64,000 nucleotides of DNA from an uncultured Akkermansia sp. GTDB lineage: Bacteria > Verrucomicrobiota > Verrucomicrobiia > Verrucomicrobiales > Akkermansiaceae. The position numbers were made by a program, and so were the translations under genes. The notes beneath the pieces are model-generated. The model was not told where the DNA came from and searched no databases. It saw only the letters and a program-made list of their open reading frames with translations. Shown one piece after another: positions 330-22,882 of the stretch (positions are counted from its first letter, which is position 1; every line of letters begins with the position of its first letter). Location: positions 1-64,000 of the forward strand of contig CALXRG010000006.1 of assembly GCA_944390825.1 (NCBI GenBank), read 5' to 3'.

Positions 330-370
330 GCGCGCGATTATACACCAAAACCCTTGATTTTTCAAGCAAA

Positions 371-724
371 TTATGCCTCATACCACGCTTTTTTCATGCA
401 TTGTTTCAGCTCGATTCCATCCAGCAGAAGACTCAGGGCCGAGGGGGTGATTTGCATCCATTTTTCCTCACTGATGGAGGCCGGTTGAGGCCAGGTGAAG
501 GTTCCTTTTTCCAGCCGTTTGCAAAAGAGGCACAGCCCGGTGCCGTCGAACCAGACGGCCTTGAGCAGGCTGTGCCCTTTGTTAATGAAAAAGTAGAAAG
601 CACCCCGGGGCATGGGCTGCTGCATGAGCTGAGCAATGACTCCCTGAAGGCGGAACATGCCGTAGCGCATGTCGATGGGTTCCTTGAGCAGGTAGGCGAT
701 GGTGTTTTGAGGCAATGTAAACAT
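371..724 (-). CDS. tnpB: IS66 accessory protein TnpB (Orf2)
   Basis: This 117-residue protein has the diagnostic TnpB pattern: an N-terminal P-x-DMRYGMFRLQG segment (residues about 16-28), an FxFINKGHSLLKAVWFDGTG core, and CKRLEKGTFTWP near residue 70-80. The family normally has DMRKSFDGL, YRLEKGxFxWP and a length of about 115, so it is full length. TnpB is required with TnpC for IS66 transposition, but its biochemical role is unsettled. It is followed by tnpC, and the IS terminus lies about 50 bases upstream of its start. Confidence 0.9.
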   Translation of the reverse strand: MFTLPQNTIAYLLKEPIDMRYGMFRLQGVIAQLMQQPMPRGAFYFFINKGHSLLKAVWFDGTGLCLFCKRLEKGTFTWPQPASISEEKWMQITPSALSLLLDGIELKQCMKKAWYEA

Positions 725-771
725 AGGCCTCTATTTTCGCACGCCTGCCTACAATGGTTTTGGTTGAGTGC

Positions 772-1800
772 TTACGTAGCCACAGAAGCCCGCAAACTGT
801 GGAAAGTCTTACTATGCCAAGTCCTCCGTTTTCCGCCGGCATGCTCGCCACGAAGCCCGATACCGTGCATGCGAACCAACTGCGTAAACTCCGTGGACGG
901 ATTCGTATGTAAACGCAAGCGCGGCAACACCCACACCGCGGCATCACCACCTGCCGCCACAGCCGCCTGAAACCGGGCGAAAGCCCAATCATAAAAATCC
1001 GGCATCATCGGCTGCTCCATCAAGCGGCGGGTCTTACCCGTCACCATACGCACCATCCTAGCATCCCAATCAAACTGCTCCCATTTTAGAGAAAGGACAT
1101 CATGCAAACGCTGTCCGAAGGTACCGACACAGCACCTTACCGCCGCTGACCACTCATCCGGAAGCTTATCAACAAGAAGCCTAATCTCCTCTAGAGAAAA
1201 CGCCTCATGTACAACCTTTTCATCCTTCGTATCAGGCTGCACCCTCACATTCAAAAAAGGATTAGAATCAATCAACTCAGCATCGACAGCCCAAGCAAAA
1301 GCCGACCTTAAAGCAACCAAAGCCTTTCTGCACGTATTTGCGCGCACCAGAGCCCTCCTGGCCGCGACCCAAGCAAGAACATCAGAACGCTTCACCAAGC
1401 GGGCCGGAGCATCAGCCCTCTTACCAAGCCAGTCACAAAACAAAGCATAATCGGTACGAGCGTTCTTATAAGTCGCAACAGATACCCGGCCCAGCTTTCC
1501 ATCCAGCATCAAACGGCAAAGCTCGCGCACCGAAACATTCTTCTCCTGCTCAACCTCCTGCTCAACCTCCTTGGCAATTTCAAAAGCCACCATCAGAGCC
1601 CTACTTTTTGCCTGCTTTTTATTCAGTATCTCGCCATCGAAGCATCCGCCATCGACGGGAACCCTAGTAGACCGTCTTTTCCGGCTGCCGTCCGGAGCAT
1701 TAAACTGCGCTATCCAAAACGGAGAGCGCTTCTCCTGGCACACAATGATATTGCGGCTACCCGTTGTGCTGCGGGTTGTGCTAAAGTTGTGCTTGTCCAT
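772..1800 (-). pseudogene. Tyrosine recombinase/integrase, truncated by IS66
   Basis: The reading frame starts at an ATG at 1800, 4 bases after AAGGTGG, a good ribosome-binding site. It carries an SAM-like core-binding domain (about residues 75-175) and a catalytic domain with box I Arg (GTFGQRLHDVLSLKW), the beta-hairpin Lys (MVTGKTRR) and the H-x-x-R of box II (FHSLRASVAT). The frame stops there at the IS66 end, so the later His/Trp and the nucleophilic Tyr are missing. Its start is about 80 bases from the 3' end of tRNA-Leu, the usual arrangement for a tRNA-integrated island or phage. As it stands the integrase should be inactive. Confidence 0.85.
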
Positions 1801-1816
1801 GTGCCACCTTGTATCA

Positions 1817-1852
1817 CATTAGTGCTCATAAATCCAATTAAATCAACTAATG
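1817..1852. repeat. 7-bp inverted repeat between integrase and tRNA-Leu
   Basis: CATTAGT (1817-1823) and ACTAATG (1846-1852) form an inverted repeat just upstream of the integrase start, in an AT-rich patch of an otherwise GC-rich region. The position suits integrase arm-type or autoregulatory binding, but this is inferred from location only. Confidence 0.35.
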
Positions 1853-1878
1853 AGGCGCGAGGTGAAACGTTAAGAGAA

Positions 1879-1962
1879 TACCACAGACGGGACTCGAACC
1901 CGTACAGTACAAAATACCGGGAGATTTTAAGTCTCCTGCGTCTACCATTCCGCCACTGTGGC
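1879..1962 (-). tRNA. tRNA-Leu (anticodon UAA)
   Basis: The minus strand folds as a class II tRNA. The 7-bp acceptor stem is GCCACAG with CTGTGGT (one G-U pair at the end) and discriminator A. The anticodon stem GGAGA/TCTCC encloses the loop CTTAAAA, giving anticodon TAA. A long variable arm follows, and a T arm GTACGGGTTCGAGTCCCGT. The 3' CCA is not encoded. The 3' end faces the disrupted integrase, so this tRNA is the likely integration target, with the T arm and acceptor as the att core. Confidence 0.95.
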
Positions 1963-6500: not shown

Positions 6501-7571
6501 ATGAATAATACATTCATTACTGATGACGTACGGATCACGGATATCCGCCCGCTGATTTCGCCGGCTATTCTGATGCAGGATTTTCCTGCCAGCGCAGGAG
6601 CCAGCAAGATGGTGTTTGAGACGCGTGAGGAGTTCCGCCGGATTCTCAAGAAGGAAGATGATCGCCTGGCAGTGATGGTCGGGCCCTGCTCGATCCACGA
6701 CACGGTAGCGGCAATCGACTATGCGGGCAGACTCGCAGCTGCCCGGAAGCATTATGAGGAGGATCTGCTGCTGATCATGCGCGTTTACTTTGAAAAGCCG
6801 CGCACAACGGTGGGCTGGAAGGGGCTGATCAACGACCCCTTCATGGACGAAACCTACAACATCAACAGCGGCTTGCGCATGGCCCGCGGCCTGCTGCTGC
6901 GCCTTGCGGAGATGGGCGTGCCGGCCGCAACCGAGTTTCTCGACACCATCACACCGCAGTACATCAGCGACCTCATTGCCTGGGGCGCCATCGGTGCCCG
7001 TACGACGGAAAGCCAGGTGCACCGTGAGCTCGCCAGCGGGCTTTCCATGCCCATTGGCTTCAAAAACGGCACCACAGGTTCCGTGCAGATTGCGGTGGAT
7101 GGCATCATCTCCGCCGCGCACCCTCACTGTTTCCTCTCGGTGACCAAGCAAGGGGTATCGGCCATCGTCTCCACGGCAGGCAACGACAGCTGCCACCTCA
7201 TTCTGCGGGGTTCCTCGCAGGGGCCGAATTACAGCAGCGAGCACGTGAAGCGAGCGATAGAAGTCCAAAAGAAAGCTGGCATCGCCAACCGCCTGATGGT
7301 GGATTGCTCCCACGGCAACAGCCACAAACGCTGGCAGGAGCAGCACCTGGTAGCCGAGGACATTGCCAGCCAGCTTGCCGCAGGCGAGGATGGTATCGGG
7401 TCAGTCATGATTGAAAGCAACATCAACGCCGGCAACCAGAAGATCGTCAAGCCACTGCAGTACGGCGTCAGTGTGACAGATGCCTGCGTGGATTGGGAAG
7501 GCACCGTTGCGATGCTCGATACGCTGGCCCAAGGTGTGAGGGACCGCCGCAAGGCTAAGGCACGCGGCTAA
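6501..7571 (+). CDS. aroG: 3-deoxy-7-phosphoheptulonate synthase, class I (AroF/G/H type)
   Basis: This 356-residue cytoplasmic enzyme condenses phosphoenolpyruvate and erythrose 4-phosphate, the first step of the shikimate pathway. Diagnostic segments are VMVGPCSIHD (residues about 58-67, with metal-ligand Cys and PEP-site residues), MRVYFEKPRTTVGWKG, GARTTESQVHRELASGLS, PIGFKNGTTG, LILRGSS and VDCSHGNSHK with the metal His. Length equals the E. coli-type enzymes, including an N-terminal extension that carries feedback sites in that group. The start is 9 bases after the pseudopilin stop, so co-transcription is likely despite unrelated roles. A terminator hairpin follows. Confidence 0.95.
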   Translation: MNNTFITDDVRITDIRPLISPAILMQDFPASAGASKMVFETREEFRRILKKEDDRLAVMVGPCSIHDTVAAIDYAGRLAAARKHYEEDLLLIMRVYFEKPRTTVGWKGLINDPFMDETYNINSGLRMARGLLLRLAEMGVPAATEFLDTITPQYISDLIAWGAIGARTTESQVHRELASGLSMPIGFKNGTTGSVQIAVDGIISAAHPHCFLSVTKQGVSAIVSTAGNDSCHLILRGSSQGPNYSSEHVKRAIEVQKKAGIANRLMVDCSHGNSHKRWQEQHLVAEDIASQLAAGEDGIGSVMIESNINAGNQKIVKPLQYGVSVTDACVDWEGTVAMLDTLAQGVRDRRKAKARG

Positions 7572-7686: not shown

Positions 7687-9291
7687 CTACATAATTGCAC
7701 GCCGCGCCGGCAAGCGGGTCTGCACCGGGGAGACCATCCCGTGGGCCCAAGCCTCGGCGAACATCCGGGCGGCATCGGCACTGTGTGAACTCGCATCATG
7801 CAGCGGCGTATCCCGCATACTGCCGGAAGCCCCCGCGGGAGCACTCCGGTACATCTCCAGGCAGCTGAAACCGGATGGCTCCTTCTCCCCGCGCATATTC
7901 GTGCGCTGCATCAGCGTGTCCCGGTGGAACCAACTGCGCTCCAGCAGCCCACGCAAAGCATTAATACCACGCCATATATCCGGCGTGCGCGGCACCACCC
8001 TCACCGCATGAATCCCCTGCATCGCCAAACTCTCCACATACGAATGGCCGTGCGGGTCCCGGTGAGCCGCATCGTGCGGCAGGAAATGAGCGGCGATCGC
8101 ACCGTATGCCTGCTCCCACTGCTGGATTTTACCGGCATAGTGTTCCAGCGGCAACTGATTAGCAGCGTAGTGATTCAGCCAATAAACCTGGCCCCCGTAC
8201 TGTTGCACCAACCAAATAGCCGTGTAATCGCTCAACCCCAAATCCCAAGCCGTATACAGCGGTTCCTCTGCCCTGTAATCAAACTCAACCCCCACGCGCC
8301 CCTTCTCCCGCAAAGAAGAAAGCTGAGCGCCGTAGATCGCCGCATCATTACCCATGGAAAACGCCTCCTCAGGCGAGGACGGATACTCCTGCCGCATCGC
8401 ACTTCCCATCGTGCGCTCCATCCTGGAATACCAAAGCTTCTGGCCGGTAGACAACCGCGTCCCCTGCTGCTCCAGCTTCTCAAAGTACGCCGCAGTCGCA
8501 GCACCCCAGCCGGGGCGCCCCTCCAGCGAATAATCCGGATTATCAAACCAGCTGAAGAAAAAAAACCGGAAATCCAGCGGCAGCAGTTCCGGCTTCGCCC
8601 TATTCTCCATCGCCTGCACCATCATCTCATAATTCACCCCATAGCGACCGCCCTCATGCGTACTTTCCAGGATGATCGTACCATCCGCCGCCACTGTATT
8701 GATCGCCCCGCTGCGAATCTCCCGGGCGCGCCAGGGAGCATGCACCGACACGTGAGCCAACTCCGACACATGCAGCAACTGCAGCGTACCGCCGCGCAGC
8801 GTCGTGCCAAGCCTCACATCGCTGCCGTTACTGAAACCGAGTCTCGTCCGCGCATCCGACACCGGCTTCCAGACACCGGATTTGCACAGCCCGGTACGCT
8901 CCTTGAGCATCGCCCCCAGGCAACCCAAAGCACGGGCACTTTCATCTGCATCAGGCGGCACATAATCCAAATGCTCCCAGGCAAAACGCAGCTTCTCCAG
9001 CTTCTGCTCCGCATCCGGCAGCGTCTTATCGATAATACCCGCGTGGAAATTCGGCGTAAACAAACAGCGATCCAGCATCAGCAGCGCCACGTACGTCGAA
9101 ATCCCCAACTGGCGCGCCTTCAGCACAGCATTGCGGTACCACAACCCGCGGTGCAGACGCCTCTGCGCGGCATTGAGGCAAAAGCGCTGCATCCGTCCCG
9201 CCTTATTCTCGATCCAATACAAATGCTGAAGGCGCCACAGCGGGTCGTCCAAGCGCCCCCTCAAGCTCGGTAACAACACCATGTCCTGCAC
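7687..9291 (-). CDS. Phage terminase large subunit (TerL)
   Basis: This 534-residue packaging motor appears complete. The ATPase domain shows the TerL-type Walker A LKARQLGIST (about residues 57-66), with ADP-site residues in WRLQHLYWIENKAG upstream, and Walker B with catalytic Glu in LLHVSELAHV. The RNase H-like nuclease shows its acidic residues in YTAWDLGLSDYTA, HFLPHDAAHRD and the C-terminal ASSHSADAARMF. TerL cleaves concatemeric DNA and pumps it into a procapsid. The start is GTG 9291 (ATG 9282 is in frame), 10 bases after the giant-protein stop. No small terminase or portal gene adjoins it. All motor and nuclease motifs are retained, arguing against simple decay. Confidence 0.88.
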   Translation of the reverse strand: MQDMVLLPSLRGRLDDPLWRLQHLYWIENKAGRMQRFCLNAAQRRLHRGLWYRNAVLKARQLGISTYVALLMLDRCLFTPNFHAGIIDKTLPDAEQKLEKLRFAWEHLDYVPPDADESARALGCLGAMLKERTGLCKSGVWKPVSDARTRLGFSNGSDVRLGTTLRGGTLQLLHVSELAHVSVHAPWRAREIRSGAINTVAADGTIILESTHEGGRYGVNYEMMVQAMENRAKPELLPLDFRFFFFSWFDNPDYSLEGRPGWGAATAAYFEKLEQQGTRLSTGQKLWYSRMERTMGSAMRQEYPSSPEEAFSMGNDAAIYGAQLSSLREKGRVGVEFDYRAEEPLYTAWDLGLSDYTAIWLVQQYGGQVYWLNHYAANQLPLEHYAGKIQQWEQAYGAIAAHFLPHDAAHRDPHGHSYVESLAMQGIHAVRVVPRTPDIWRGINALRGLLERSWFHRDTLMQRTNMRGEKEPSGFSCLEMYRSAPAGASGSMRDTPLHDASSHSADAARMFAEAWAHGMVSPVQTRLPARRAIM

Positions 9292-9300
9292 ATCATCGTT

Positions 9301-12300
9301 TTACTCATCATCCGGGGATTCCCCCGGCAGCGGGCCATCCCCCGACGCCGCATCCGCAGCCGGCTCCTGCTCACCATCACCCCGCACGCGATCCGCCACC
9401 GCGCTGAGAAGCGCCTGCTCCACCTCAGCCTTGCCCTGAAGCTCGTGCGAAGACCTGCGGCGCAAACGCTCCCGCGTGAACGCCTCATTTCCCCGCAGCA
9501 GCGTATTGAGCAGTGTTTGGTGCATCTCCGGGTTATCCCTGACAAGCGACATCAGCTCGTGCAACCGCCCCGGAGCCAGGGGATCCGTCCCACTGCAGCA
9601 AAGCATCAGCTCGCGTGCAATTCCCAAAGCCAGGCACTCACCGGCATCCAGCTGCTCAGGCTGCTTCTGCCGCACCGACCAGCTGAATCCCGTATCCTCG
9701 CACAAGCGCATCAGCAACTCCCGGTACCCCAAGTCAAACGCCGAATCCGGGCGGCGGGCACCAATCTCCGCGCGCTCAGCAATACCATCCAGCGTATACT
9801 CTACCCCGCGGAGTGCCAACTGGCCCATTGTCTTCTGATTGTAAGGGCGACGCTCAAACACGTGGAAATCCCGCAGGGGATTCATCGCCTCCGACACCTC
9901 CCCGGGCTCCCGGACAGCCTCGCGTTTCGGCACCTTCAGGTACATGCCGTTCCAGCAAACGATCACGTACGGACTGCGCATCGTACCGCTGGCGGCATAA
10001 GCATCACCGGGCATCAGGCGGTAAATCATCTCCGCCTGGGAAGGATCCCGGTAAACCGTAACCGTACGCCAGGGCAACCCGTCTATCAGCCCGGCACTGG
10101 GCCGCATCTCCACACCGCACAGCTTCACCGACTCCGTCCCCTGATCGCGGATCAGCTCATCCACCCGTTCCAGCACATTGAGCACACCGGTGAGCGGCTG
10201 ATCCTGCACCCAACTGGCAGGAATTCCCTCCGGCCGGGCACCGCGCTTACCGCCATAAAGCCGGTTGTGCATCCAGATACCGTCCTCTGTAGCATACGGC
10301 TGATCCACCACAAAACTGCGGAGCTGGTCCAACGTACGCAACGCCGTCAGCACCCGCTCATCGCCCCGCATAAACTCAGGCAAAGGCTGCATATCACCCA
10401 CGACAAACTCATCCCGCACCCTGCCATACCATGGCTCCATGGCGAAAGGACGGCTGCCCCGGAGATTCAGCTTCTCCCGGGCCGGGTCAGGCAAGCGCGG
10501 AACATCGCCCGGCGAAGGCTCCCCGAGCCGCATCTCATACACCACCCCCAGATCATCAGAGCGCAGAGCATACCGGTGCAACTCGGGGTGTTCCCTAAGC
10601 ACCCCATCCAGGTTCAGAATCAGCTCATGCACCAGATCAGCCCCCGACTGCTGAGCCTGAGCCTCCATCACCTCCGGCAAGCCACTGCGGGCTGCGGCAG
10701 CCGACATCGTACGGCGCAAATCATCCTTCTGGCCCTCACTCAAGCGATTCCAGGCCGCAGCCGGCTCCTGCAACAAATCCCAGTACACCTGGTGAGCCGC
10801 GAACTGTCGCGGATCGCGCAGCTTGCTCAAACTCCAGGCCTGCTCGAGCATCACCGCCTCATTCTGCCCCACAGAAGCATCCAAATGCCACTGCATGCGC
10901 TCATCCAGCGGCGGCTGCTGACGGAAGTTCTCCAACTGCCCGGCATACGCCCGGATCTTATTCATACTGCGCCGGTTCGCCCACCGCATCAGCTGCGACA
11001 TACCAGCCCCCAGCGGCACACGGAAGCGCCGGTTCCCCTCCCGGAAGAACTCGTGATTCTCCGCCTCCAACGGGCAGAACACCGCCAGCGAAAGCCATTC
11101 GCGGGCACTCTCCGGCAGAGCCAGCCGGTCCCCCTGCGCCAGCACATAATGCGTACTCAAATCCGTCAGAGCACGCGCCAGCGACACATTGCACAACTCC
11201 CGCCGGGCAGCCAGCACATCCTGCGCCGACTGGTGGCGGCGCAAACGCATAGGCCGACCGAGCACATTCTGCAGGTTCTCCCACTCACGGGGCTGCAAAT
11301 ATCCCCGCTCCACGAGCATACGCCCCGCCTCCGACGCATCCAGCGAGCCACTGCTCAGGCATCGGCGCCAATACGTCATAAAGCGAGCCTGCATCAGCGA
11401 CAGCGGCGTCACCACCGAATGCTGATCCACGCGGTACGTTCCGCCGGCGCGATCTGCCGGCTGCATCAGCGGCGTCACCCCGTCCGTCCCCTGCGAGGAA
11501 GCGAACTGTTTACTCACCTGCGTCACATCCATCCCCGGCTGCATCCGCAAAGCAGACCCCAGCCAATAGCGCGACATATCCTCCGTTGCCTTGCGGCAGA
11601 GCCGGTCATACACCGTAAACCCATCCTGCTGCACCGGCAGCCAGCTACAGAAATCGAAGTCCCCCCGAGCCGCATAATCCTGCAACAACCGGCGCAGCGA
11701 CGCACCGTACTCCATGAAGGAAAGCGAAGCCGACGATGCCACATCATTCACGGCATACTCGGGCTTCTCATGCCAGCGGGTATACTGTCCATCCGCGCGG
11801 CGGGCCCGCCAGTACGTCACCCCATCCGCGCCCACCGTACGCTCCACATCGCGACCGGTCAGCTTGCGGTACAGATCGAAACACTCACCATTGCGTCGTG
11901 AATAATCCAGCATCCGCCCGCTGTCCGCCCCTTGGAAAACAGCCTCCTGCGGATACCCGGGAATCTTTCCCGGGTCGATTTGCAATTCCCTTGCCGCCAG
12001 ATGAGAATACGCCTGCAACGGCGTCATCCCCCTGGACAAAGCCGTACGGAAATCCTCTGTTTGGGGCAGCAGTTCATAAAGCATCGCAGCACAGGACTCC
12101 ACCCCCTGCATCACGCGCATTGACTGCAAGTACTCAGGCGGCACATCATCCAAGCCCACCTTGCGGGCCCTCTCCACGTACTCATCCATCGCAGAAAGCA
12201 TACGGCCGGGCACCCTGTCCATCCACACAGGAGCGAAAGCACGCTTACGGCGCCGCACCAGCATATCGCCCCATCCTCTCTCGAACGCCCGGAGAATTTC

Positions 12301-15171
12301 GCTGCGGTTCTCACCGGCGGCCATACGCATCAGCAGCTTCGCCGCCTCACCCAGCATCACATGACGGCTCTGCTCGGTATTCATGCGCAAGCGCTCAGGC
12401 GAACTGTTCACCCGGATCAGCGAATCCAGGGAATACACATTGAGCAAATGCTGGTAGGAAAGGTCCAAAATCTCAGCGAAACGATCCTGCACCATCATGC
12501 GGCGTTCCTTCTCCGCCAGCCTCACCTGGGCACCCACCGCATCACGGTACTGAGGGGCGAGCTGCTCGGGGTGCTCCATATCCTTTGCATAGCGCACGCG
12601 CCTTTCCCAGCTGTTGCGCAACCACTGCACCCGCAACGCACGGGAAGACTCCTCGCCCCCACCGAGCAAATGCGACTTGGCCCACCACTCATCCCACAAC
12701 GGCAGCACCGATGCCAAACGCGAATGACTCTTGATCGTCCCCGCCCCCGGACGCTGCAACACGCGGCTGACCGACTCCGGGTCATCAGGCCTCATCAACT
12801 CCTGCCCCCGGGGAAGCGCCGCGCTCTCCGACGGCAACCTCAGGAAATCGCGCACCACCTCCGGCTGCGAAAACCCCTTGAAATAATCCGTATTCAGCAA
12901 ACGCATCGCCCGCATCGCCTCATCCATAAACCCCGCACCGCCCCAGCGTGCACTGTTGCGCAACGCATCGCGGAGCATCGCCCCCTGAGCATCCGGATTG
13001 GACTCCTTCATAATTGCCTCGCAGCGCTCCTCACTGATACCCCACTCCCGCAGAGCACCACCATCACCCAAGACCATACCCGGAGAGCGGAAATGCCTCA
13101 ACGCCACGCGCCCCGACCCAATCAAAAAGAACGGCAGCATCATCGCGGCCTCGCGCATATTCGCCTCCACATCCGTCAAATTATCGCCAAACGCCTGCCA
13201 ATCAATATTCGAAGCCGTGCGGTCCACGCGAGCAGCCAACTCCTGCATACCCAAATCAGCAGCCTGAGCAGCCTTACCGCCCAGCAGCAAACCGGCACTC
13301 TCCCCTGTCAGCATCCCCAAACTGCGCAACGCCGCCATAGAATAACCGCCCACACCACCGCCCCGGGCACGGGCAAACGCCGCGATCGACTGCTCCATCG
13401 CCTTACCGCCCAACTTACTCATCGACGAGAAAATCCCCGCCTGAAGCGTCCCGGCAATCACCCCGGCAGCAGTCTGCAACTGCTGATCGCCCTGCGGCGC
13501 CCGCTGCCTGGCCTCTGCGATCGCCTCACCCACACCATGGAGCGTCAGACCGGCGAACCCTGCCCCACCGCAAAAAGCCGCCACTGCGGCCGGCGTCGCC
13601 CCGGCAGCATCCACCAGGAACTGCTCCGCCCGGAACTCACCCGGCCCCGGCTCCAAGCTGTACACCTCATCCTGAGCCACGCGGCGCATCTCCTCCAGCA
13701 CCCGCAAACGCCTGTCCATCGCATCAGCCGTCCCCCTCATATCCGTACCGAGCGCACCATCCAGCTGCTCGCCCAGATTTCCGACCACACTCGCCGCGAC
13801 ATTACCAACCGCCTGCGCCGCACCGAAACTCAAACCCAGCGCCCCGCGTCTCACACTGCGCACTGTCCTGCTGAGCAACGACTCATCCTCCGGCAGCTGC
13901 GGCGCCAACCCCCTGGCCAGGTAATACACCACCCGGCGGTCCTCAGCAGGCAACGCCGCCAGCTCATCCACCGCCATCAGCACCTCAGGAGCCGAGCCCA
14001 GCACCTCCGGCGCAGAAAACGCCTGATTTTCCGTTGCATACACCGCACCCAACCCGGCGGACACCTTCTCAGCCAGCGGCAAAAAACGATCGCGCAACGC
14101 GCCGCCATCCATCGCCGCCTGGAGCTCCACCTGGCGCAAGCGCCGCGCCGTCTCTGCATCAACACCATCAAACCGGGACAAACCCGCGTCATCCGCCGTC
14201 CCCTCCAACCCCGCCTGGTAAGCCCGCCTGTACACATCGCGAGCCTGAGCCCTCAGCTTCTCCTCCGAAGCCCGCAGCGAAATTGCCCGGAACACCTCCT
14301 GCTCATCATCAGCCGCCCCCAACTGTGAAGCCAGCATCGAGCGCAAACTCCCCCACCGCGACCGCACCTGGTCACGCGACAAACCACTGTGATCCGCCAC
14401 CCAGGAGCGGTTAATCACCGAAGCCAAACGGTAAGCACTTGCCTCCTCATCCAACGCAGCATCATTCGCCCCGGCCCTCTCCACCACATCGGCAGGCACC
14501 TCACTCAAATCACCCGTCAGCACACGCGCCCAATAAGCAGCACGCGCCGCCTCATCCCCGGGCTCGCGAGACAGCCCCCCCAAACGTTCAGCCACAGGGT
14601 CCCCACGGTGCACCTCAGCCCCCCTCCCGGGAGGCGCATCATCGCCGCCCTCCTCAGAAGGAGCACCAACCCCGGCGGACACAGATGCCCCCGCCTTCTG
14701 CTCCCGCTCCGCTCCGGCATCCGCAGCCGACTCCGGAGTCGCGCCCGACAGCACAGCAACCGCGGACCCGGCATCCCGCAATCCCCCGTCCCCCGGCCCA
14801 TCCTCCAGCGGCGCACCATCCCGAAGCCGCCCCCCATCCTGGGGAGCCACATCCAACGCCGTTTCTGCAAACATCTGCCCCAGCGCCTGAGCCGCCTCCT
14901 CCGGCACCAGCATCTCCTCCGGCAGCGGCTCAGCCTGCTCATCGCCCCTCCGGACCGCCTCAGCCGGAGACATCTCGGCAGCAGTCAAGCCCACTGCCGC
15001 CCCATCATCCACCTCCCGGAGCCTGGCAGCAGTCACCCCGCCACTCGCCGCAGACGCCGGCAATTCCCCGGCATCCTGTCCCTCCCCATGCTCAGACTCC
15101 CACGCCTGCGCATCCGCCACCCGGGAGTCATCCTCCCCCAACATCCGATTTCTATCCTGATTTGTATTCAT
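9301..15171 (-). CDS. Giant 1,956-residue phage-like protein, putative DNA-ejection/internal virion protein
   Basis: The start at 15171 is preceded by a strong AAGGAG site that overlaps the upstream stop codon; the earlier ATG at 15192 lies before that site. Residues 1-210 are acidic and Ala/Gly/Glu-rich, probably disordered. Residues about 440-695 hold several Gly/Ala-rich amphipathic or hydrophobic stretches (SFGAAQAVGNVAASVVGNL, AAFCGGAGFAGLTLHGVG, AAGVIAGTLQAGIFSSM, AAMMLPFFLIGSG). The remaining 1,200 residues are Arg-rich and helical. Very large size, disordered N-terminus, membrane-active centre and location next to TerL resemble podovirus internal virion proteins such as T7 gp16, or phage polyvalent proteins. 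No catalytic motif was recognised, so function is inference. Confidence 0.6.
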   Translation of the reverse strand: MNTNQDRNRMLGEDDSRVADAQAWESEHGEGQDAGELPASAASGGVTAARLREVDDGAAVGLTAAEMSPAEAVRRGDEQAEPLPEEMLVPEEAAQALGQMFAETALDVAPQDGGRLRDGAPLEDGPGDGGLRDAGSAVAVLSGATPESAADAGAEREQKAGASVSAGVGAPSEEGGDDAPPGRGAEVHRGDPVAERLGGLSREPGDEAARAAYWARVLTGDLSEVPADVVERAGANDAALDEEASAYRLASVINRSWVADHSGLSRDQVRSRWGSLRSMLASQLGAADDEQEVFRAISLRASEEKLRAQARDVYRRAYQAGLEGTADDAGLSRFDGVDAETARRLRQVELQAAMDGGALRDRFLPLAEKVSAGLGAVYATENQAFSAPEVLGSAPEVLMAVDELAALPAEDRRVVYYLARGLAPQLPEDESLLSRTVRSVRRGALGLSFGAAQAVGNVAASVVGNLGEQLDGALGTDMRGTADAMDRRLRVLEEMRRVAQDEVYSLEPGPGEFRAEQFLVDAAGATPAAVAAFCGGAGFAGLTLHGVGEAIAEARQRAPQGDQQLQTAAGVIAGTLQAGIFSSMSKLGGKAMEQSIAAFARARGGGVGGYSMAALRSLGMLTGESAGLLLGGKAAQAADLGMQELAARVDRTASNIDWQAFGDNLTDVEANMREAAMMLPFFLIGSGRVALRHFRSPGMVLGDGGALREWGISEERCEAIMKESNPDAQGAMLRDALRNSARWGGAGFMDEAMRAMRLLNTDYFKGFSQPEVVRDFLRLPSESAALPRGQELMRPDDPESVSRVLQRPGAGTIKSHSRLASVLPLWDEWWAKSHLLGGGEESSRALRVQWLRNSWERRVRYAKDMEHPEQLAPQYRDAVGAQVRLAEKERRMMVQDRFAEILDLSYQHLLNVYSLDSLIRVNSSPERLRMNTEQSRHVMLGEAAKLLMRMAAGENRSEILRAFERGWGDMLVRRRKRAFAPVWMDRVPGRMLSAMDEYVERARKVGLDDVPPEYLQSMRVMQGVESCAAMLYELLPQTEDFRTALSRGMTPLQAYSHLAARELQIDPGKIPGYPQEAVFQGADSGRMLDYSRRNGECFDLYRKLTGRDVERTVGADGVTYWRARRADGQYTRWHEKPEYAVNDVASSASLSFMEYGASLRRLLQDYAARGDFDFCSWLPVQQDGFTVYDRLCRKATEDMSRYWLGSALRMQPGMDVTQVSKQFASSQGTDGVTPLMQPADRAGGTYRVDQHSVVTPLSLMQARFMTYWRRCLSSGSLDASEAGRMLVERGYLQPREWENLQNVLGRPMRLRRHQSAQDVLAARRELCNVSLARALTDLSTHYVLAQGDRLALPESAREWLSLAVFCPLEAENHEFFREGNRRFRVPLGAGMSQLMRWANRRSMNKIRAYAGQLENFRQQPPLDERMQWHLDASVGQNEAVMLEQAWSLSKLRDPRQFAAHQVYWDLLQEPAAAWNRLSEGQKDDLRRTMSAAAARSGLPEVMEAQAQQSGADLVHELILNLDGVLREHPELHRYALRSDDLGVVYEMRLGEPSPGDVPRLPDPAREKLNLRGSRPFAMEPWYGRVRDEFVVGDMQPLPEFMRGDERVLTALRTLDQLRSFVVDQPYATEDGIWMHNRLYGGKRGARPEGIPASWVQDQPLTGVLNVLERVDELIRDQGTESVKLCGVEMRPSAGLIDGLPWRTVTVYRDPSQAEMIYRLMPGDAYAASGTMRSPYVIVCWNGMYLKVPKREAVREPGEVSEAMNPLRDFHVFERRPYNQKTMGQLALRGVEYTLDGIAERAEIGARRPDSAFDLGYRELLMRLCEDTGFSWSVRQKQPEQLDAGECLALGIARELMLCCSGTDPLAPGRLHELMSLVRDNPEMHQTLLNTLLRGNEAFTRERLRRRSSHELQGKAEVEQALLSAVADRVRGDGEQEPAADAASGDGPLPGESPDDE

Positions 15172-15181
15172 AAAAAACTCC

Positions 15182-16411
15182 TTAAGATTCATAACATACC
15201 CAGCACAACCCCGTCTCGCGCTGCTGCTTCAGCCAAGCCGCGGAAGCCTCCGAGCCCCCCGACCGCAGCACCGGCATCCCCTCCTGCTGCAAAGCCAAGT
15301 AACGCCGGCACGCCTGCTCATCAGCCGGATTACCCAAGCCACCCTCCACAAACAACCGGTAGAGCCCCCGACTGAGCGCCCGTCGATCTGCGACAGACAC
15401 CTCCCCGGACTCACGCAAACGTCTGAGCATCGACGCCCGCTCCGCCACCGGCAGCGGAGCCGTCACCAGATCCAGCGCCATCCCCGTCCGGCTCTCCTCA
15501 TCATCCGGGCACTCATCCACCAGGCGCAACCAGCGGCTCCGGCTGCGCACATCATCCGCCAGACCGCCGGGCTGCACACCATCGCGCTGCGACTCCGTCA
15601 GCAACCCGGCAGCAAAAGCAACCTCCGCCTCACGGGCATCCGGCAAGTGTCCCTGCTCCACCCCCTGCACCCAGCGCTCCGTCAACCCGCGCCGGGCACT
15701 GCGGCGAGTCTGCGCCTCCAGCTCCGTCAGACTGTGTGCATCCTCCTCCCGCCCGGGCAATGCGTCAGCCTGCGCCCGCCCCAGCTCCGCGAGAGTCTCC
15801 AGCGGCTGCCTATCCAACGCCTCCCTCCAGCGCGACAAACAACTGCGGCTCATCACCGCGCTCTTTGTCCTTTCCATCTCAGACTCCGGCACAAACACGC
15901 GCTCCCCCAAACTCAGCCACTGCTGCGCCTGAGCATCATCACCACGGGCCACCGCCCGGTCCAGCTCCTGCTGCCAGCGCTGGCGGGCCTGATCAATCTG
16001 CGACAGCTCATGATCCCTGCGGACCTCCAAAGAAGCCTGTCTGTTATAAAGTGAAGCCAACTTCCGGCCAGCCTCCCTGCGCTCAGGCGGCAACTCATCC
16101 ACCACCTCAGCCACCCTGCCGGCACTGGCCTGCTGCCAGGCATAATCCCAATCCCGCACCTCAGCATCCTGCATATCCAGAGCCGTCTCATCACGCACCG
16201 ACTGCATACGGGAAGCCAGCTGAGCCTGCTCCGCCACCTGGTCCACCTCCTCCTTCTGCCGGAGCCACTCCGCACCGGCATCGAACAACTGCTGGAGACC
16301 TCTCCCCATGCGTCGGGCCTCCTCATCCCAGCCAAGCATCCCCTCCACCGGAATCTGCACACGACGTCCCGGCGCACTCAGCATACCCCACTCTCTCATG
16401 CGTATCGCCAT
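15182..16411 (-). CDS. Coiled-coil/helical phage-like structural protein
   Basis: From ATG 16411 this gives 409 residues (ATG 16399 is also possible; the frame is open further upstream but that part is Cys/Trp-rich and unlike protein). The sequence is almost entirely helical, with charged repeats such as HELSQIDQARQRWQQELDRA followed by VARGDDAQAQQWLSLGERVF. That helix pattern is common in podovirus internal or ejection proteins. It is first in a tightly packed minus-strand operon with the giant protein and TerL. The stop codon overlaps the giant gene's ribosome-binding site. No enzyme motif is visible and the exact family is not recognised. Confidence 0.6.
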   Translation of the reverse strand: MAIRMREWGMLSAPGRRVQIPVEGMLGWDEEARRMGRGLQQLFDAGAEWLRQKEEVDQVAEQAQLASRMQSVRDETALDMQDAEVRDWDYAWQQASAGRVAEVVDELPPERREAGRKLASLYNRQASLEVRRDHELSQIDQARQRWQQELDRAVARGDDAQAQQWLSLGERVFVPESEMERTKSAVMSRSCLSRWREALDRQPLETLAELGRAQADALPGREEDAHSLTELEAQTRRSARRGLTERWVQGVEQGHLPDAREAEVAFAAGLLTESQRDGVQPGGLADDVRSRSRWLRLVDECPDDEESRTGMALDLVTAPLPVAERASMLRRLRESGEVSVADRRALSRGLYRLFVEGGLGNPADEQACRRYLALQQEGMPVLRSGGSEASAAWLKQQRETGLCWVCYES

Positions 16412-16547: not shown

Positions 16548-16583
16548 AAAAAAAGCCGCTCCCCGCACACAGCGGAGAGCGGC
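16548..16583 (-). terminator. Terminator of glyQS
   Basis: On the minus strand GCCGCTC (16583-16577) pairs with GAGCGGC (16561-16555), followed by seven T residues (16554-16548). It isolates the phage-like operon from the tRNA-synthetase transcript, so that operon must start within 16412-16547. Confidence 0.85.
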
Positions 16584-16610
16584 CCGGAAATTCTCCGGCG
16601 GAGACCCGGC

Positions 16611-18194
16611 TCAGTGGATACGCTTAAGCAGCCAGTGCAGCAAATCACTGATTGCCACACGCTCCTGCTCCATCGAATCACGGTGGCGAATCGTCACCGT
16701 ATCCTTCAGAGCAGGCTCACCCTCCTCACCCAGCGTCTCAAAGTCCACCGTGATGCAGAAAGGCGTACCCACCTCATCCTGCCGGCGGTAGCGGCGACCC
16801 ACAGCACCGGCCTCATCGTAGAACACATTCATGAACGGGCGCAGCATCTGCTCGATCTCGTGAGCGATGCGCACCTGCTGCGCGTTCTTCTTAAGCAGCG
16901 GGAAAATCGCCGCCTTGATGGGAGCCATACGCGGGTGGAAGCGCATCACCGTACGGACATCGCTCTTACCATCCTTCCCCAGCTCCTCCTCATCGAACGC
17001 CTCGCAAATCACCGCCAGCACCGTACGGTCACAGCCGGCGGACGGCTCGACCACGTGCGGGATAAACTTCTCACGCGTTGCCTCATCGAAATACTCCATA
17101 GGCTTACCCGACCCCTCCTGGTGGCGAGTCAGGTCATAATCCGTGCGGTAAGCGATACCCTGGAGCTCCTGCACACCGAACGGGAACGCATACTCCAGGT
17201 CATACGTCTTTTTCGAATAGAACGCACGCTCACCATCCGGCACATCCAGGATATGAATCTTATCCCGCGGGATACCGATATTCTCGTAAAACGTCAGGCA
17301 AGTCTCCAGCCACTCATCCGTCAGGCGCAAGCCATCCTCCGCACGGCAGAAATACTCGATCTCCATCTGCTCAAACTCACGCGAGCGGAACGTAAAATTG
17401 CGCGGATTAATCTCATTGCGGAACGATTTGCCGATCTGAGCAATACCGAACGGCAACTTCATCCGCGACGAATCCAGAATATTCTTATACTGGCAGAAAA
17501 TACTCTGAGCCGTCTCCGGGCGCAGCCAACCGATACTCGCCGGGTCATTTTCATCCGAAGCCGCTCCAATCGTCGTCTTAAACATCAGATTAAACGACCG
17601 GGCCTCCGTCACAAGCGATCCATTGGCCGGGTTATAACGAGTACTGTCCGTCACCGTCTCCGTACGCTCGCCGAGCAACTCGATATCCGCAGCCGTTGCG
17701 CCGCTGCCACAGATCTGGCTGTAATACTGAGCCGCCCCCTTGCGGGCCGTCTTAGCATCCTTCTCACCATCGGTTGGCACCAGCATCGAAAACTCCTTCT
17801 TCGTACTCCAGGAACCATCCTTGCGCGACGCCCCGCTCCACCAGTACGCGATGCCGCTCTGCGCCGGGATCTGGTCAGCGCGCAAACGCTCCTTACTCAG
17901 CAAGCAATCGCAGAGCGGGTCAGAAAACCCGCCCACGTGTCCGGAAGCCGTCAGCACCGCATTGTGCGTCAGGATGGCGCCGTCCATTCCCACGACATCG
18001 GGGCGCTCCTGCACGTGAACACGCCACCAGTAGTCCTTGAGATTACGCTTCAACTCCGCACCGAGAGGACCGTAGTCCCAGCAGCCGTTGAGGCCGCCAT
18101 AAATCTCAGCTGCCTGAAAAATAAACCCCCTGCGCTTGCAAAGGCTCACAATTTTCTCCATCCGGACGGGATCAGTCTGTGTACGGTCTGCCAT
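16611..18194 (-). CDS. glyQS: Glycyl-tRNA synthetase, single-chain class II
   Basis: This 527-residue alpha2-type enzyme charges tRNA-Gly. It begins with MEKIVSLCKRRGFIFQAAEIYGGLNG and YDYGPLG-like WDYGPLGAELKRNLKDYWW, the hallmark N-terminus of eukaryote/Thermus-type GlyRS. Class II motif 2 is FRNEINPRNFTFRSREFEQMEIEYF. Motif 3 is seen around VVEPSAGCDRTVLAVICEAF. The anticodon-binding domain follows (APIKAAIFPLL, YDEAGAVGRRYRRQDEVGTPFC). Length is somewhat longer than usual because of an insert around residues 90-200 (GASRKDGSWSTKKEF onward). A terminator follows the gene. Confidence 0.95.
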   Translation of the reverse strand: MADRTQTDPVRMEKIVSLCKRRGFIFQAAEIYGGLNGCWDYGPLGAELKRNLKDYWWRVHVQERPDVVGMDGAILTHNAVLTASGHVGGFSDPLCDCLLSKERLRADQIPAQSGIAYWWSGASRKDGSWSTKKEFSMLVPTDGEKDAKTARKGAAQYYSQICGSGATAADIELLGERTETVTDSTRYNPANGSLVTEARSFNLMFKTTIGAASDENDPASIGWLRPETAQSIFCQYKNILDSSRMKLPFGIAQIGKSFRNEINPRNFTFRSREFEQMEIEYFCRAEDGLRLTDEWLETCLTFYENIGIPRDKIHILDVPDGERAFYSKKTYDLEYAFPFGVQELQGIAYRTDYDLTRHQEGSGKPMEYFDEATREKFIPHVVEPSAGCDRTVLAVICEAFDEEELGKDGKSDVRTVMRFHPRMAPIKAAIFPLLKKNAQQVRIAHEIEQMLRPFMNVFYDEAGAVGRRYRRQDEVGTPFCITVDFETLGEEGEPALKDTVTIRHRDSMEQERVAISDLLHWLLKRIH

Positions 18195-18470: not shown

Positions 18471-18499
18471 TTGCCAGTCATCCCGGCAAATGCTACAAT
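18471..18499 (+). promoter_or_regulatory. Predicted promoter of lipoprotein gene
   Basis: TTGCCA (18471-18476), a 17-base spacer and TACAAT (18494-18499). The start codon is 10 bases past the -10. Confidence 0.65.
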
Positions 18500-18509
18500 A
18501 CCCCCCAGC

Positions 18510-19400
18510 ATGAAACCGACATTGTTCCTCACCTGCGTGCTCAGCGCCCTGCTCGTATCATGCCAAAGCGAGCCGGACTACGCGAGCAACTACCGTCTGC
18601 CTGCCACCAGCAGCAGCACGTCGCAGCCGCAGACACATCTGGCTCTTCCCGGCCAGGCAGCAGTCGCCGTTGATTCCTCGGTCGACGATGCCTTTGACCG
18701 GCAGGCTCAAGCCTACACCAGCAGCACCGCTGGCTCCACGGGCAACGGCTACACCCCGCCAGCCCCCGCAAAACCCGCAACAGACCCTCTCGTTGCGGAT
18801 GCCCTGAGCACCCTTTCCGGCACCCAATCGGGAGCCACAACCGCGCCCTACGGCACAACCGGCTATAACACAACCGCCTCCACCACCCCGGCGCCGGCGG
18901 TACCAGCCACAGTCACCCCCGGAGTGACACCCTCCGCCGCGGTGCCCGCACCGGCGGCCCCCACATACAACGTGCAACCCGCCGCGCCCGCAGCTCCCAC
19001 CGTCATCACCCAGCCCCAGGCTAGCATCACGCCGCAGCCTGTCCAGAGCGCCATTCCGGGCGGCCCCATTGACTACTCCGTCAAAATCATCAACACCACC
19101 ACGGGCCGTCTCTTTGTCGAAGCGCAAGACGCCGCCGGCGAGATCTACCCCGTCGGCTTCCTGACCTCCGGCACCAGCAGCACCATCAACAAAACCCAGG
19201 CTGCCCCCATCAAAGGACCGATTACCGTCGTCATCCGTGACCCGGACAAACCGGACACCCCCGAGATTCGGCGCTACAAAGTCGAGCTGCCCACCGAGAG
19301 CTACGCCAACAAAACCCTGGGCATCTCCATCGTACCCGGCGGCATCTACCATGCCAGCCTCGATGGCCGGGTCTACTACACCTCGCCGGGCGAACGCTAA
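18510..19400 (+). CDS. Putative lipoprotein with Pro/Ala/Thr-rich linker
   Basis: This 296-residue protein starts at ATG 18510 with a lipoprotein signal: MKPTLFLTCVLSALLVSC, lipobox LVSC, Cys at about 18. Residues 20-190 are a low-complexity Ser/Thr/Pro/Ala linker. The C-terminal 105 residues form a compact beta-rich domain (DYSVKIINTTTGRLFVEAQD, YPVGFLTSGTSSTIN, GPITVVIRDPDKPDTPEIRRYKVELP, ISIVPGGIYHASLDGRVYY). No family was identified. It is likely tethered to a membrane with the linker spanning the periplasm. The earlier in-frame ATG overlaps the promoter and was not used. A strong terminator follows. Confidence 0.7.
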   Translation: MKPTLFLTCVLSALLVSCQSEPDYASNYRLPATSSSTSQPQTHLALPGQAAVAVDSSVDDAFDRQAQAYTSSTAGSTGNGYTPPAPAKPATDPLVADALSTLSGTQSGATTAPYGTTGYNTTASTTPAPAVPATVTPGVTPSAAVPAPAAPTYNVQPAAPAAPTVITQPQASITPQPVQSAIPGGPIDYSVKIINTTTGRLFVEAQDAAGEIYPVGFLTSGTSSTINKTQAAPIKGPITVVIRDPDKPDTPEIRRYKVELPTESYANKTLGISIVPGGIYHASLDGRVYYTSPGER

Positions 19401-19516: not shown

Positions 19517-19729
19517 ATGTGCAAACCATTCCGTGATTACCTGAACATCGTACGTGACTACACGCGAGAAATCATCACCTTCGGCGGCCTCTGCCTCATG
19601 TGCTTCGTCTACACAGACTTCCGCCAGCTGGCCAAAGACCAATCCGTCACCGCCGCCCAAACAGTCGAAGTCCTGCGAGCCATGGACACCCGGCTCCGCA
19701 ACCTGGAACTCCAACTTGCCAACCACTGA
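19517..19729 (+). CDS. Small single-span membrane protein, holin-like
   Basis: This 70-residue protein has one hydrophobic segment (IITFGGLCLMCFVYT, about residues 21-35), a charged N-terminus (KPFRDYLNIVRDYTRE) and a short amphipathic C-terminal helix (VEVLRAMDTRLRNLELQL). The start ATG 19517 is set by the adjacent promoter. It lies 9 bases before an M15 peptidase gene. That pairing and the size are typical of phage holin/endolysin cassettes, where the holin releases the peptidase to the wall. Small holins have no reliable sequence signature, so the role rests on context. Confidence 0.6.
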   Translation: MCKPFRDYLNIVRDYTREIITFGGLCLMCFVYTDFRQLAKDQSVTAAQTVEVLRAMDTRLRNLELQLANH

Positions 19730-19738
19730 ATCCCCCCC

Positions 19739-20323
19739 ATGAAAACCGAAATCATCCGCATCCAGAAACATCTGGGCGTCGATGCCGACGGCATCATCGG
19801 CCCGGTCACCATCCAAGCCATCAGTCGCGCCCTGGGGCTTCCCGCTGTCACCGCATGGCCCACCCAGGCCCAAGTCAGGAGCGGCAGCAGCATCTTTGGC
19901 AAACCCGGCAACGAATCCGCCCTCATCTCCATCACGCCGCCCTACACCCTCTACTACGAAGGCTCTCCCGTCCGCACCATCCGCGTCCACAAACTCATTG
20001 CCGACGCCGTGCAGCAAGCCCTCAGCGAAGTCCTGGCCCACTATGGCTGCGAAGAAATCCACCGTCTGGGACTGGACATTTACGGCGGCAGCTACAACTA
20101 CCGCAGCACGAGCAGCGGCTCCGCGCTCTCCATGCACGCCTGGGGCATTGCCCTGGACTTCGCCCCCGAGACGAACGCCTACAGCACCCACGCACCGCAA
20201 GCAACCCTCTCGCACCCGGACTGCCAGGCCTGGTGGGACATCTGGGAATCCCACGGAGCCACCTCCCTGGGACGCGAGCGGGACATCGACTGGATGCACC
20301 TGCAATTTGCCCGTCTGGGCTGA
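19739..20323 (+). CDS. Peptidase M15 family endolysin-like protein with N-terminal PG-binding motif
   Basis: This is a 194-residue zinc peptidase. Residues 5-35 resemble a short peptidoglycan-binding motif (IQKHLGVDADGIIGPVTIQA). The catalytic domain contains SGSALSMHAWGIALDF, matching the S-x-H-x-x-G-x-x-x-D zinc motif, and DWMHLQF with the third ligand. M15C members cleave L-Ala-D-Glu or D-Ala-D-Ala bonds and include many phage endolysins. There is no signal peptide, consistent with holin-dependent release, and a holin-like gene sits directly upstream. A chromosomal wall-remodelling role cannot be excluded. Confidence 0.8.
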   Translation: MKTEIIRIQKHLGVDADGIIGPVTIQAISRALGLPAVTAWPTQAQVRSGSSIFGKPGNESALISITPPYTLYYEGSPVRTIRVHKLIADAVQQALSEVLAHYGCEEIHRLGLDIYGGSYNYRSTSSGSALSMHAWGIALDFAPETNAYSTHAPQATLSHPDCQAWWDIWESHGATSLGRERDIDWMHLQFARLG

Positions 20324-20453: not shown

Positions 20454-20636
20454 ATGAACATAGCCACCATTATTTCGAAAGCCTACGCCGTCACCACCGC
20501 CAGCGGCTGCACCGTGACCACCGCCAGTGGCATCACCATTCTCACCGTTCCGGCCAACACCCAAGCCTGCTTCATCGCCCCCACGGCCGAAGTCATCATC
20601 TCAGACGACTCCGCCATCATCACGCCCCTATCCTGA
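20454..20636 (+). CDS. Small hypothetical protein, 60 residues
   Basis: The frame from ATG 20454 encodes a Thr/Ile/Ala-rich, beta-type protein (AYAVTTASGCTVTTASGITI, then TVPANTQACFIAPTAEVIIS). It has an internal repeat TTASGC/TTASGI and few charged residues. It starts right after the 19-bp repeat array and ends before a strong terminator, 131 bases downstream of the endolysin-like gene. It may be a small phage structural or lysis accessory protein; no family is recognised. Confidence 0.5.
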   Translation: MNIATIISKAYAVTTASGCTVTTASGITILTVPANTQACFIAPTAEVIISDDSAIITPLS

Positions 20637-20776: not shown

Positions 20777-22882
20777 TCACTTGCTGTGGATATTAAGCAT
20801 CTCCGCATAAGTCGGCACCGGCCACAGATCAGCGTCCACGATGGTCTCCAGCGTATCCACAGTCACGCGTGCAGCCGCCATACAATCAAGCTCCGCCTGC
20901 GTGCACCCCTTCTCAATCGCGGAAGCAAGCTCCGCCGTCCGGTCAAGCATCTCATCGTAGAGAGCGCCCACCCTCTCCGCCTTATCCGTTGCGGCCCTGA
21001 GCCCTGCCCTGATACCGGCAGACTGAATAGCCGCCACCGTACCGCAAATCTCAGTCATCTGCTCCGCGATAGCCGGCTTGTAAATCGTCTCCAGCATGTT
21101 AAGGCACGTCTTCGCCTCGATATCGATAAGCTTCACATAACTCTCCACCTGGATCTCCTTTCGGGCCAGCAGCTCCGCCTCCGTCAGCACACCATACTTC
21201 TGGAAAAGCGCGATCGTATCCGGGCGGGAAAGCACCTCCAGCGCCTCCAGTGTCGTCCTGATATGCGGCAACCCGCGCCGCTCAGCTTCTGCCACCCACT
21301 CCTCGGAGTAACCATTGCCATTGAACAGCACACGGTCGTGCTTCACCACCATCTCGGTGACCAGCTCCATCGCCTTGGCGCGGAACTCCGGCGTCCCCGC
21401 ATAAGGCTCCAGCTTCGTCGCCACCTCATCGAGCGTTTCCGCCACAATCGTATTGAGAATCGACATCGGCCACGCGCACGTCTGGGAAGACCCCACCGCG
21501 CGGAACTCGAATTTATTGCCCGTGAACGCGAACGGCGACGTACGGTTGCGATCCGTCGCATCCTTGGGCAGCACCGGCAGCGTATCCACGCCCAGCTCCA
21601 TCATCGTCTTGCCGGCCGAGCTCTTCGCCCCGCCGTGCTTGATCTGCTCGATGATATCCATCAGCTGATCGCCCAGGAAAATTGAAATAATCGCAGGCGG
21701 AGCCTCCTGCGCCCCGAGGCGGTGATCATTGCCCGCCTTGGAAATCGACGCACGCAGCAAATCCGCATGCAAATCGATCGCGCGAATCACACTCGCCAGG
21801 AACGTCAGGAACAGCAAATTACTGTGCGGCGTCTTACCCGGGCTGAGCAGCGATCCCAGCTCCGGCGTCGACAGAGACCAGTTGTTGTGCTTGCCCGAGC
21901 CATTGACACCGGCATACGGCTTCTCGTGCAACAGGCACACCAGGTTAAACTTCAACGCCTGGCGCTCCAGGATATCCATAATCATCACATTGTGATCCAC
22001 CGCCACATTGCTCGGCTCGAAAAGCGGCGCCAGCTCGAACTGCCCCGGAGCCACCTCATTGTGGCGGGTCTTCGCCGGCACACCGAGCGCCCACAGCTCA
22101 CGGTCCACCGCCGCCATAAACTCCAGCACACGCTCCTTGATCGAGCCAAAATAGTGATCCTCCATCTGCTGATGCTTCGGCGGCAGGCAACCGAACAGCG
22201 TGCGCCCCGTCTCAATCAGATCCGGGCGCTGCAAATACAAATCGCGATCAATCAGGAAATACTCCTGCTCCGCCCCGAGATTCGACTCCACCACACTCGG
22301 CTCGATACCAAAGCAATTCAACACACGCGTCGCCTGGCGGGCCACCGCCGCCATCGAGCGCAGCAGCGGCGTCTTCTTATCCAGCGCCTCACCCGTATAC
22401 GAACAAAACGCCGTCGGGATACACAGCGTCGCCGTATTCGCCGTACGCTTGATAAAAGCCGGAGAAGTCGGATCCCACGCCGTATAGCCGCGCGCCTCGA
22501 ACGTCGCACGGATACCACCGGATGGGAACGACGACGCATCCGGCTCCCCCTGGATCAGCGACTTACCGGTAAACTCACAGATCATCCCGCCTTTACCGTC
22601 CGGCTCCACGAACGAGTCATGCTTCTCCGCCGTCGCCTCCGACAGCGGCTGGAACCAGTGCGTATAATGCGTAGCCCCCTTGGAGATAGCCCACACCATC
22701 ATCGCCTGAGCCACCTCATCAGCGATAGTCGGATCCAGGCGCCCACCCTTCTCGATGGTCGTCATCATCTTCCTGAAAGCATCCTTGGACAGGTACTTTT
22801 TCATCGTCTTGACGCCGAAAGTCTCACTGCCGTAAAGGCTCTCGAGCTGCTCAGCGGAATTCGTCGGTGTATTAGTCTGCAT
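20777..22882 (-). CDS. glnN: Glutamine synthetase type III
   Basis: This 701-residue enzyme makes glutamine from glutamate, ammonia and ATP. Length and order fit GSIII: an N-terminal region ([20 protein letters not shown]), GSIII-type [12 protein letters not shown] and [16 protein letters not shown], the active-site segment [44 protein letters not shown] for the ATP/glutamate site, and [13 protein letters not shown]. The long helical C-terminal part is typical. GSIII is common in Bacteroidota and Verrucomicrobiota and is usually nitrogen-regulated. No clear promoter was seen in the 77-base gap after lipA. Confidence 0.95.

Follow-up and report, generated by a model that had tools for sequence, protein, structure and literature searches.

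A probable podovirus-derived gene transfer agent dispersed over at least five loci in Akkermansia

Results

The trio and the lysis genes

The window (the whole stretch of 64,000 nucleotides that was analysed) was found to contain three phage-like genes, encoding a helical protein, a giant protein and the large terminase subunit (TerL), transcribed in this order (Table 1, locus A). The gene of the helical protein overlapped that of the giant by 11 bp, and a gap of 9 bp separated the giant gene from the TerL gene. The sequence-only reading had described an intact, tightly spaced module, and this was confirmed, as all three frames were open and lay on the minus strand. The same reading had given the giant 1,956 residues; the giant is real, but it measures 1,963 aa from the first ATG, and the shorter length corresponds to a start seven codons further in. 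The module is flanked by aroG and glyQS, and glyQS was correctly said to have its own terminator, in the form of a strong terminator-like hairpin. A conserved position between aroG and glyQS, which had been proposed as a check, was not found; the flanks of the trio differed in the other species read out, where neither of the two genes adjoined it.

Table 1. Positions of the features described (window coordinates unless a genome or locus handle is given)
Feature	Locus	Position	Strand	Remarks
Tyrosine recombinase		772-1593	minus	PF00589, 3.7e-5
tRNA-Leu(TAA)		1879-1962		
aroG		6501-7571	plus	neighbour of locus A
TerL, 534 aa	A	7687-9291	minus	open frame; Pfam and PHROGs matches
Giant protein, 1,963 aa	A	9301-15192	minus	open frame
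Helical protein, 409 aa	A	15182-16411	minus	open frame; first gene of the locus
Terminator-like hairpin of glyQS		16553-16585	minus	14-pair stem and T run; strong; separates glyQS from the module
glyQS		16611-18194	minus	neighbour of locus A
Promoter-like site		18471-18499		upstream of the lipoprotein-like gene
Lipoprotein-like gene	E (membership uncertain)	18510-19400	plus	also precedes the holin in other species
Holin-like protein, 70 aa	E	19517-19729	plus	directly before the endolysin in most species
Endolysin, 194 aa	E	19739-20323	plus	M15-type peptidase; peptidoglycan-binding N-terminus
Portal cluster	B	G000:C16, 43.8-48.7 kb		portal, scaffold-like protein, gp11-like tail adaptor, small winged-helix protein, four small proteins
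Portal	B	G000:C16:45975-47549		PHROG_332, 9e-86; PDB 8ck0, 3e-47
gp11-like tail adaptor	B			PHROG_394, 2e-39
Scaffold-like protein	B			PHROG_3742, 1.6e-25
Winged-helix protein, 102 aa		L135:7998-8306	minus	conserved beside the tail-adaptor gene
Tail nozzle	C	G000:C10:59126-61111		solitary; PHROG_376, 9e-123; PDB 8ck1, 1e-85
Major capsid protein (MCP)	D	G000:C9:62454-63344		solitary; PF19821, 1.4e-78; PHROG_3437, 4.6e-52
Capsid leader, about 115 nt		L184:10357-10471 (= G000:C9:63357-63471)	minus (L184)	before the capsid gene

TerL matched Pfam Terminase_6C (1.2e-6) and PHROG_2 (7.9e-24), and its predicted model, of modest confidence (pLDDT 65), matched T4 gp17 and other terminases. The ATPase and nuclease residues, which had been reported as kept, were invariant in 23 orthologues; these are the Walker-A-like K58-T66, S176-E177, S210-G214, and D350, D407 and D506. 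A single TerL of the trio type was present in the window's genome (2.32 Mb, 47 contigs). The TerL orthologues of named public genomes were almost all recorded as Akkermansia or Akkermansiaceae, and a few as uncultured bacterium or uncultured Verrucomicrobiales. Their hosts were ruminants, horse, mouse and others, and records deposited as A. muciniphila were included.

The earlier account of the surroundings, which gave no portal, capsid, tail, small terminase, integrase or att site nearby and did not list lysis genes, had to be amended. Holin-like and endolysin genes were found 3 kb beyond the start of the module (locus E), and the tyrosine recombinase and tRNA-Leu genes 6 kb to its left, with host genes between. 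The holin-like protein contained one short hydrophobic stretch and gave weak PHROG matches. The endolysin matched PHROG_17001 (endolysin, 6e-48) and Peptidase_M15_4 (1.1e-5), and it co-occurred with the trio across genomes. The lipoprotein-like gene (cluster c4) was present beside the holin and endolysin genes in 20 loci. An ORF of 60 aa beside the endolysin gene (20454-20636, plus strand) resembles the N-terminus of 267-389-aa proteins adjoining the lysis genes of Akkermansia prophages; in genome G029 its counterpart also lies beside the same 701-aa host gene (20777-22882 in the window). At the left end of the window (1-1962), IS66-like transposase fragments accompany the tyrosine recombinase and tRNA-Leu(TAA), and an integrative element probably ends here, at a tRNA gene.

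Further loci in the same genome

Portal, nozzle and capsid alignments from the podoviral prophages of related genomes were used to search the window's genome (G000) and 59 relatives. A single-copy set of these three genes, distinct from those prophages and referred to here as of gene transfer agent (GTA) type, was found in the window's genome and in nearly every other trio-bearing genome. The window's genome contained one GTA-type portal, one nozzle, one MCP and one endolysin, each at its own locus. In locus B, which is conserved, one strand encodes a 75-aa protein, the winged-helix protein and the gp11-like tail adaptor, and the other strand a 126-aa protein, a 71-aa protein, the portal, a 94-aa protein and the scaffold-like protein. 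The PDB chains matched by the portal and the nozzle (8ck0 and 8ck1) are described as a portal protein and a tail nozzle, respectively. Host genes surround each of loci B, C and D, and genes for replication or integration were not found next to the loci read out.

In the complete genome G004 (3.18 Mb), the MCP, the trio, the nozzle and the portal were located at 0.35, 1.83, 2.86 and 3.06 Mb, respectively. Because the loci are up to megabases apart, no phage-sized fragment can hold all of them. Their flanks were common to close species and different in distant species, as is expected of old residents in rearranging chromosomes. The number of five loci is a lower bound and further parts may exist; no small terminase or receptor-binding protein was identified. 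The conserved winged-helix protein is a candidate regulator or small terminase.

Inspection by eye upstream of the loci revealed no common regulatory sequence or promoter motif. The leader that precedes the GTA capsid gene is conserved. When genomes were searched with a model built from it, 9 of the 10 with the GTA gave a single hit each, always at the capsid gene, and the four without the GTA gave none (0/4); the model also found L192 and L378, two loci outside its training set. No Rfam family was matched at gathering score. As it is present only at the capsid gene, the leader was rejected as a signal common to the loci, and it is perhaps a control element.

Distribution, inheritance and selection

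A search of relatives for the trio, and for capsid and portal genes elsewhere, had been proposed, and it found the system genus-wide, in 46 of the 59 Akkermansia species genomes; every part was absent in the other 13. Among the first 37 genomes, all five parts were present in 22, three or four in 7 (most of them incomplete or fragmented assemblies) and no GTA-type part in 8, followed by 17 of the further 22 genomes with TerL, MCP and portal and 5 with no GTA-type part. The GTA type and the prophage type were sorted by score and identity, and the trees back this sorting for the sequences read out. Metagenomes are the source of most of these genomes, so that single missing genes may be gaps. About three changes (losses) account for the absences on the RecG tree, which covers 57 genomes; they fall in one ten-species clade and two single lineages. 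This count is a safer figure than the Fisher p values for co-occurrence, which overstate independence owing to shared ancestry. As the loss events are few, the association rests on joint loss and correlated divergence together.

In our study, we found that TerL, portal, nozzle and capsid are inherited vertically with the host. The GTA-type sequences of each formed one clade apart from the compared prophages (SH-aLRT 98-100). Their distances were correlated with RecG distances (Mantel r of 0.92 for TerL, 0.93 for the portal, 0.945 for the nozzle and 0.88 for the capsid; 0 of 2000 permutations as high) and with each other (r 0.90-0.97). The RecG tree had 12-15 splits in common with the four gene trees, at most 3 being obtained by chance. 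Within the GTA clade, the TerL, portal and capsid sequences were separated by far smaller distances than their counterparts in Akkermansia prophages; for the nozzle, the difference was less pronounced.

The TerL, portal and capsid genes are under strong purifying selection. Calculation of dN/dS, which had been recommended, gave low pairwise values for these three (0.01-0.18 overall; TerL 0.03-0.13, portal 0.04-0.18, MCP 0.01-0.11). The values were 0.06-0.27 for the endolysin, 0.05-0.47 for the nozzle and 0.20 for the giant (one pair). TerL, portal and MCP are thus the most constrained parts, and the nozzle and the giant evolve faster.

Related podoprophages and the candidate ejection proteins

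The podoprophage of genome G075 (C1, about 2,439-2,467 kb; L366/L367) was found to contain all parts in one block, in the order TerL, portal, lysis-type genes, scaffold, capsid, gp11-like protein, nozzle, a 149-aa protein, a 567-aa protein and a giant of 3,385 aa. Its proteins were 45% (TerL), 37% (portal), about 71% (MCP) and 37% (nozzle) identical to the GTA proteins. It resembles the GTA set in having homologues of the helical protein and the giant, and differs from it in the contiguity of the parts and the length of its giant. A family of Akkermansia podoprophages is represented by L366/L367 and L356; its ejection-type giant measures 3,385 aa, and its capsid shares 60-71% identity with that of the GTA.

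In phage T7, gp15 and gp16 build the ejection channel, and the late genes are ordered gp15-gp16-gp19. A T7-like order had been read from the trio, and the succession of helical protein, giant and TerL in transcription agrees with it; the helical protein precedes the giant in 8 other species too. The helical profile matched (1.5e-15) the 567-aa protein that precedes the giant in the G075 podoprophage, and the giant profile matched the 3,385-aa giant itself (1.4e-28, over about 540 residues). In that prophage, the two homologues lie directly behind the tail genes, a position among the late genes as in T7. Because the profiles match prophage proteins at those positions, the helical protein and the giant occupy the places of gp15 and gp16, which supports the T7-like reading of the pair. 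They are candidate gp15-like and gp16-like ejection proteins, respectively.

The giant is a diverse protein, with orthologues 24-45% identical. Its C-terminal 374 aa were modelled at a pLDDT of 88. Foldseek comparison of this model with the PDB and with viral models gave no hit at E 0.001 or better; the best VIA-align Z was 4.4, which is not meaningful, and no known fold was matched convincingly. The giant profile found no match among PDB sequences, and a search of viral contigs yielded no homologue of this protein. No resemblance to ejection proteins of solved structure was seen in these comparisons. The helical and giant profiles did not match the partial prophage giants, whereas they did match the two proteins of the G075 prophage.

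In genome G071 (C1, about 560 kb; L368/L369), a second GTA-type capsid gene lies beside truncated nozzle and gp11 fragments and is a decayed copy. The capsid fragment groups with the GTA clade. Addition of the G075 prophage sequences to the MCP and portal trees made one or two extra label changes necessary. The prophage MCP with its identity of about 71% and the G071 fragment inside the GTA clade suggest that capsid genes may have moved between phage and GTA lineages.

The decayed MCP copy of G071, and the fact that a complete phage was present at none of the loci, would agree with chance survival of remnants of one or several decaying prophages, which the sequence-only reading had kept as its conservative alternative. 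We regard this as very improbable, in view of the retention of the set in 46/59 species, the open frames of the genes read out, the low dN/dS and the single clade per gene congruent with the host tree. Decay would not jointly spare, and then jointly lose, the capsid, portal, TerL and lysis genes. A phage satellite had also been proposed, and helper functions for podoprophages of the same genus may be considered with it, as related podoprophages occur in some of the same genomes and one has a close MCP. The system, however, has its own MCP, portal, nozzle and TerL, its parts are dispersed and not mobile as a unit, no integrase is present at the loci, and many system-bearing genomes, the window's included, yielded no related prophage TerL; a satellite or helper role is exceedingly improbable.

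Discussion

The trio is best explained as the locus for the ejection proteins and the packaging motor of a podovirus-derived GTA split over at least five loci, to which we assign a probability of roughly 80%. This reading is built on gene identity, dispersion, co-occurrence, vertical inheritance and purifying selection, as observed. A GTA-like system split over several loci was among the earlier proposals and is the one that fared best: portal, scaffold, capsid, nozzle, tail adaptor and lysis genes were found elsewhere in single copy, and the parts co-occur with the trio across the genus, under vertical inheritance and purifying selection. The ancestor would have been a podovirus of the T7/HTVC010P type, and its domestication would have taken place early in Akkermansia evolution.

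GTAs are defined by six features, including a particle too small for the agent's whole genome, the encapsidation of mostly random host DNA and its delivery to other cells (PMC9662315). Three of the six were found in this system, namely particle proteins of caudoviricete origin (portal, MCP, nozzle, gp11-like protein, scaffold-like protein, TerL and endolysin), full endogenization, at no fewer than five loci, and vertical inheritance with co-diversification with the host (PMC9662315). A functional prophage would be one contiguous genome with integration and replication genes; the genes found here form five loci among host genes.

We infer joint expression, particle assembly, packaging of host DNA and delivery, which may proceed as follows. 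Some cells would express all five loci, the capsid and scaffold proteins would assemble on the portal, and TerL would package fragments of the host chromosome. The gp11-like and nozzle proteins would make a short tail. The helical protein and the giant would be loaded and, on attachment, form a channel across the envelope of the recipient in the manner of T7 gp15/gp16, and the holin and endolysin would lyse the producer cell.

A phage-like particle without gene transfer might also package host DNA, and kill or signal to relatives, or deliver proteins such as the giant. Precedents are PBSX of Bacillus and possibly FpGTA (PMC12946183). The size of the giant is very large and its C-terminus lacks a known fold match, and the nozzle and the giant diverge fast, as cell-facing parts may. 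We nevertheless consider such a particle unlikely. TerL, with all its catalytic residues, the portal and the MCP are the most constrained parts, which indicates that DNA packaging itself is being kept. The ejection-type proteins are kept too, and comparisons with Pfam, PHROGs and PDB revealed nothing marking the giant as a toxin. On balance, we favour a functioning, independently evolved GTA of podovirus origin, the first in Verrucomicrobiota, with at least five loci, retained through most of Akkermansia evolution, human-gut species included, which would move host DNA between gut cells.

An indirect hint comes from the mouse gut, where contigs with transduction-like coverage patterns showed a 3.5-fold over-representation of Verrucomicrobia (PMC7667829). 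Neither Akkermansia nor Verrucomicrobia is mentioned in a survey that used long reads to study the packaged gut DNA of three donors. No report linking GTAs with Akkermansia was found in a literature search that left most subscription journals and preprints outside its scope.

Comparison with known systems

A podovirus-like GTA, FpGTA, was described from Faecalibacterium in 2026 (PMC12946183). Like the Akkermansia system, it has parts of short-tailed-phage type in separate loci, including a holin and an endolysin, is near-ubiquitous in its own genus, lacks replication genes and belongs to a gut anaerobe (PMC12946183). It differs in its Gram-positive host, in having two loci (10.5 and 5.5 kb) against at least five, and in the presence of TerL, portal, scaffold and MCP in one operon (PMC12946183). 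Particles and packaged DNA of ~9 kb were shown experimentally for FpGTA (PMC12946183), whereas those of the Akkermansia system are predicted. The two are compared here by description. With its other phylum and more scattered layout, the Akkermansia system is a candidate for a system separate from FpGTA.

The head-tail cluster of RcGTA is siphovirus-like and occupies one main locus. In the Akkermansia system, by contrast, the MCP, the nozzle, the portal cluster and the TerL locus all lie apart; the phage ancestors also differ. Similarities with RcGTA and other rhodogtaviriforms are a domesticated caudoviricete, several loci, vertical inheritance and slower evolution than that of phages (PMC9662315). 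BaGTA of Bartonella and BhGTA of Brachyspira are likewise independent phage exaptations packaging host DNA, each in one bacterial group, and are set apart, by description, by their different phage ancestors and phyla (PMC9662315). Among phages, the HTVC010P-type pelagiphage podoviruses have an MCP about 35% identical, and T7 has the same order of ejection proteins and TerL; both differ from the Akkermansia system in having contiguous genomes of their own.

GTAs are rare; they derive from phages that were domesticated independently, and few lineages are known to have their genes. If the reading given here is true, it extends GTA exaptation to a new phylum, with a podovirus as the source, and to a widely studied gut commensal with cultured strains. 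Particle-borne exchange of chromosomal genes in Akkermansia becomes testable, and the one-block prophage, which belongs to the same genus, offers a natural point of comparison for the way in which a phage is dismantled and yet kept. The system may also bear on the excess of Verrucomicrobia among transduced mouse-gut DNA (PMC7667829).

The results also give a warning that provirus callers take in parts of the system. The IMG/VR contig L031, with a TerL 79% identical, was rejected as a phage bearing the module; because a separate lambda-type terminase, portal and head protease are present, it is an unrelated prophage beside the chromosomal TerL. Four IMG/VR provirus entries (L357, L358, L359 and L360) contain the GTA portal gene. 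They may be mis-bounded, since the GTA portal cluster of G075 lies ~13 kb from the podoprophage. In L357 and L358, the two entries read out, the portal cluster accompanies the GTA portal gene.
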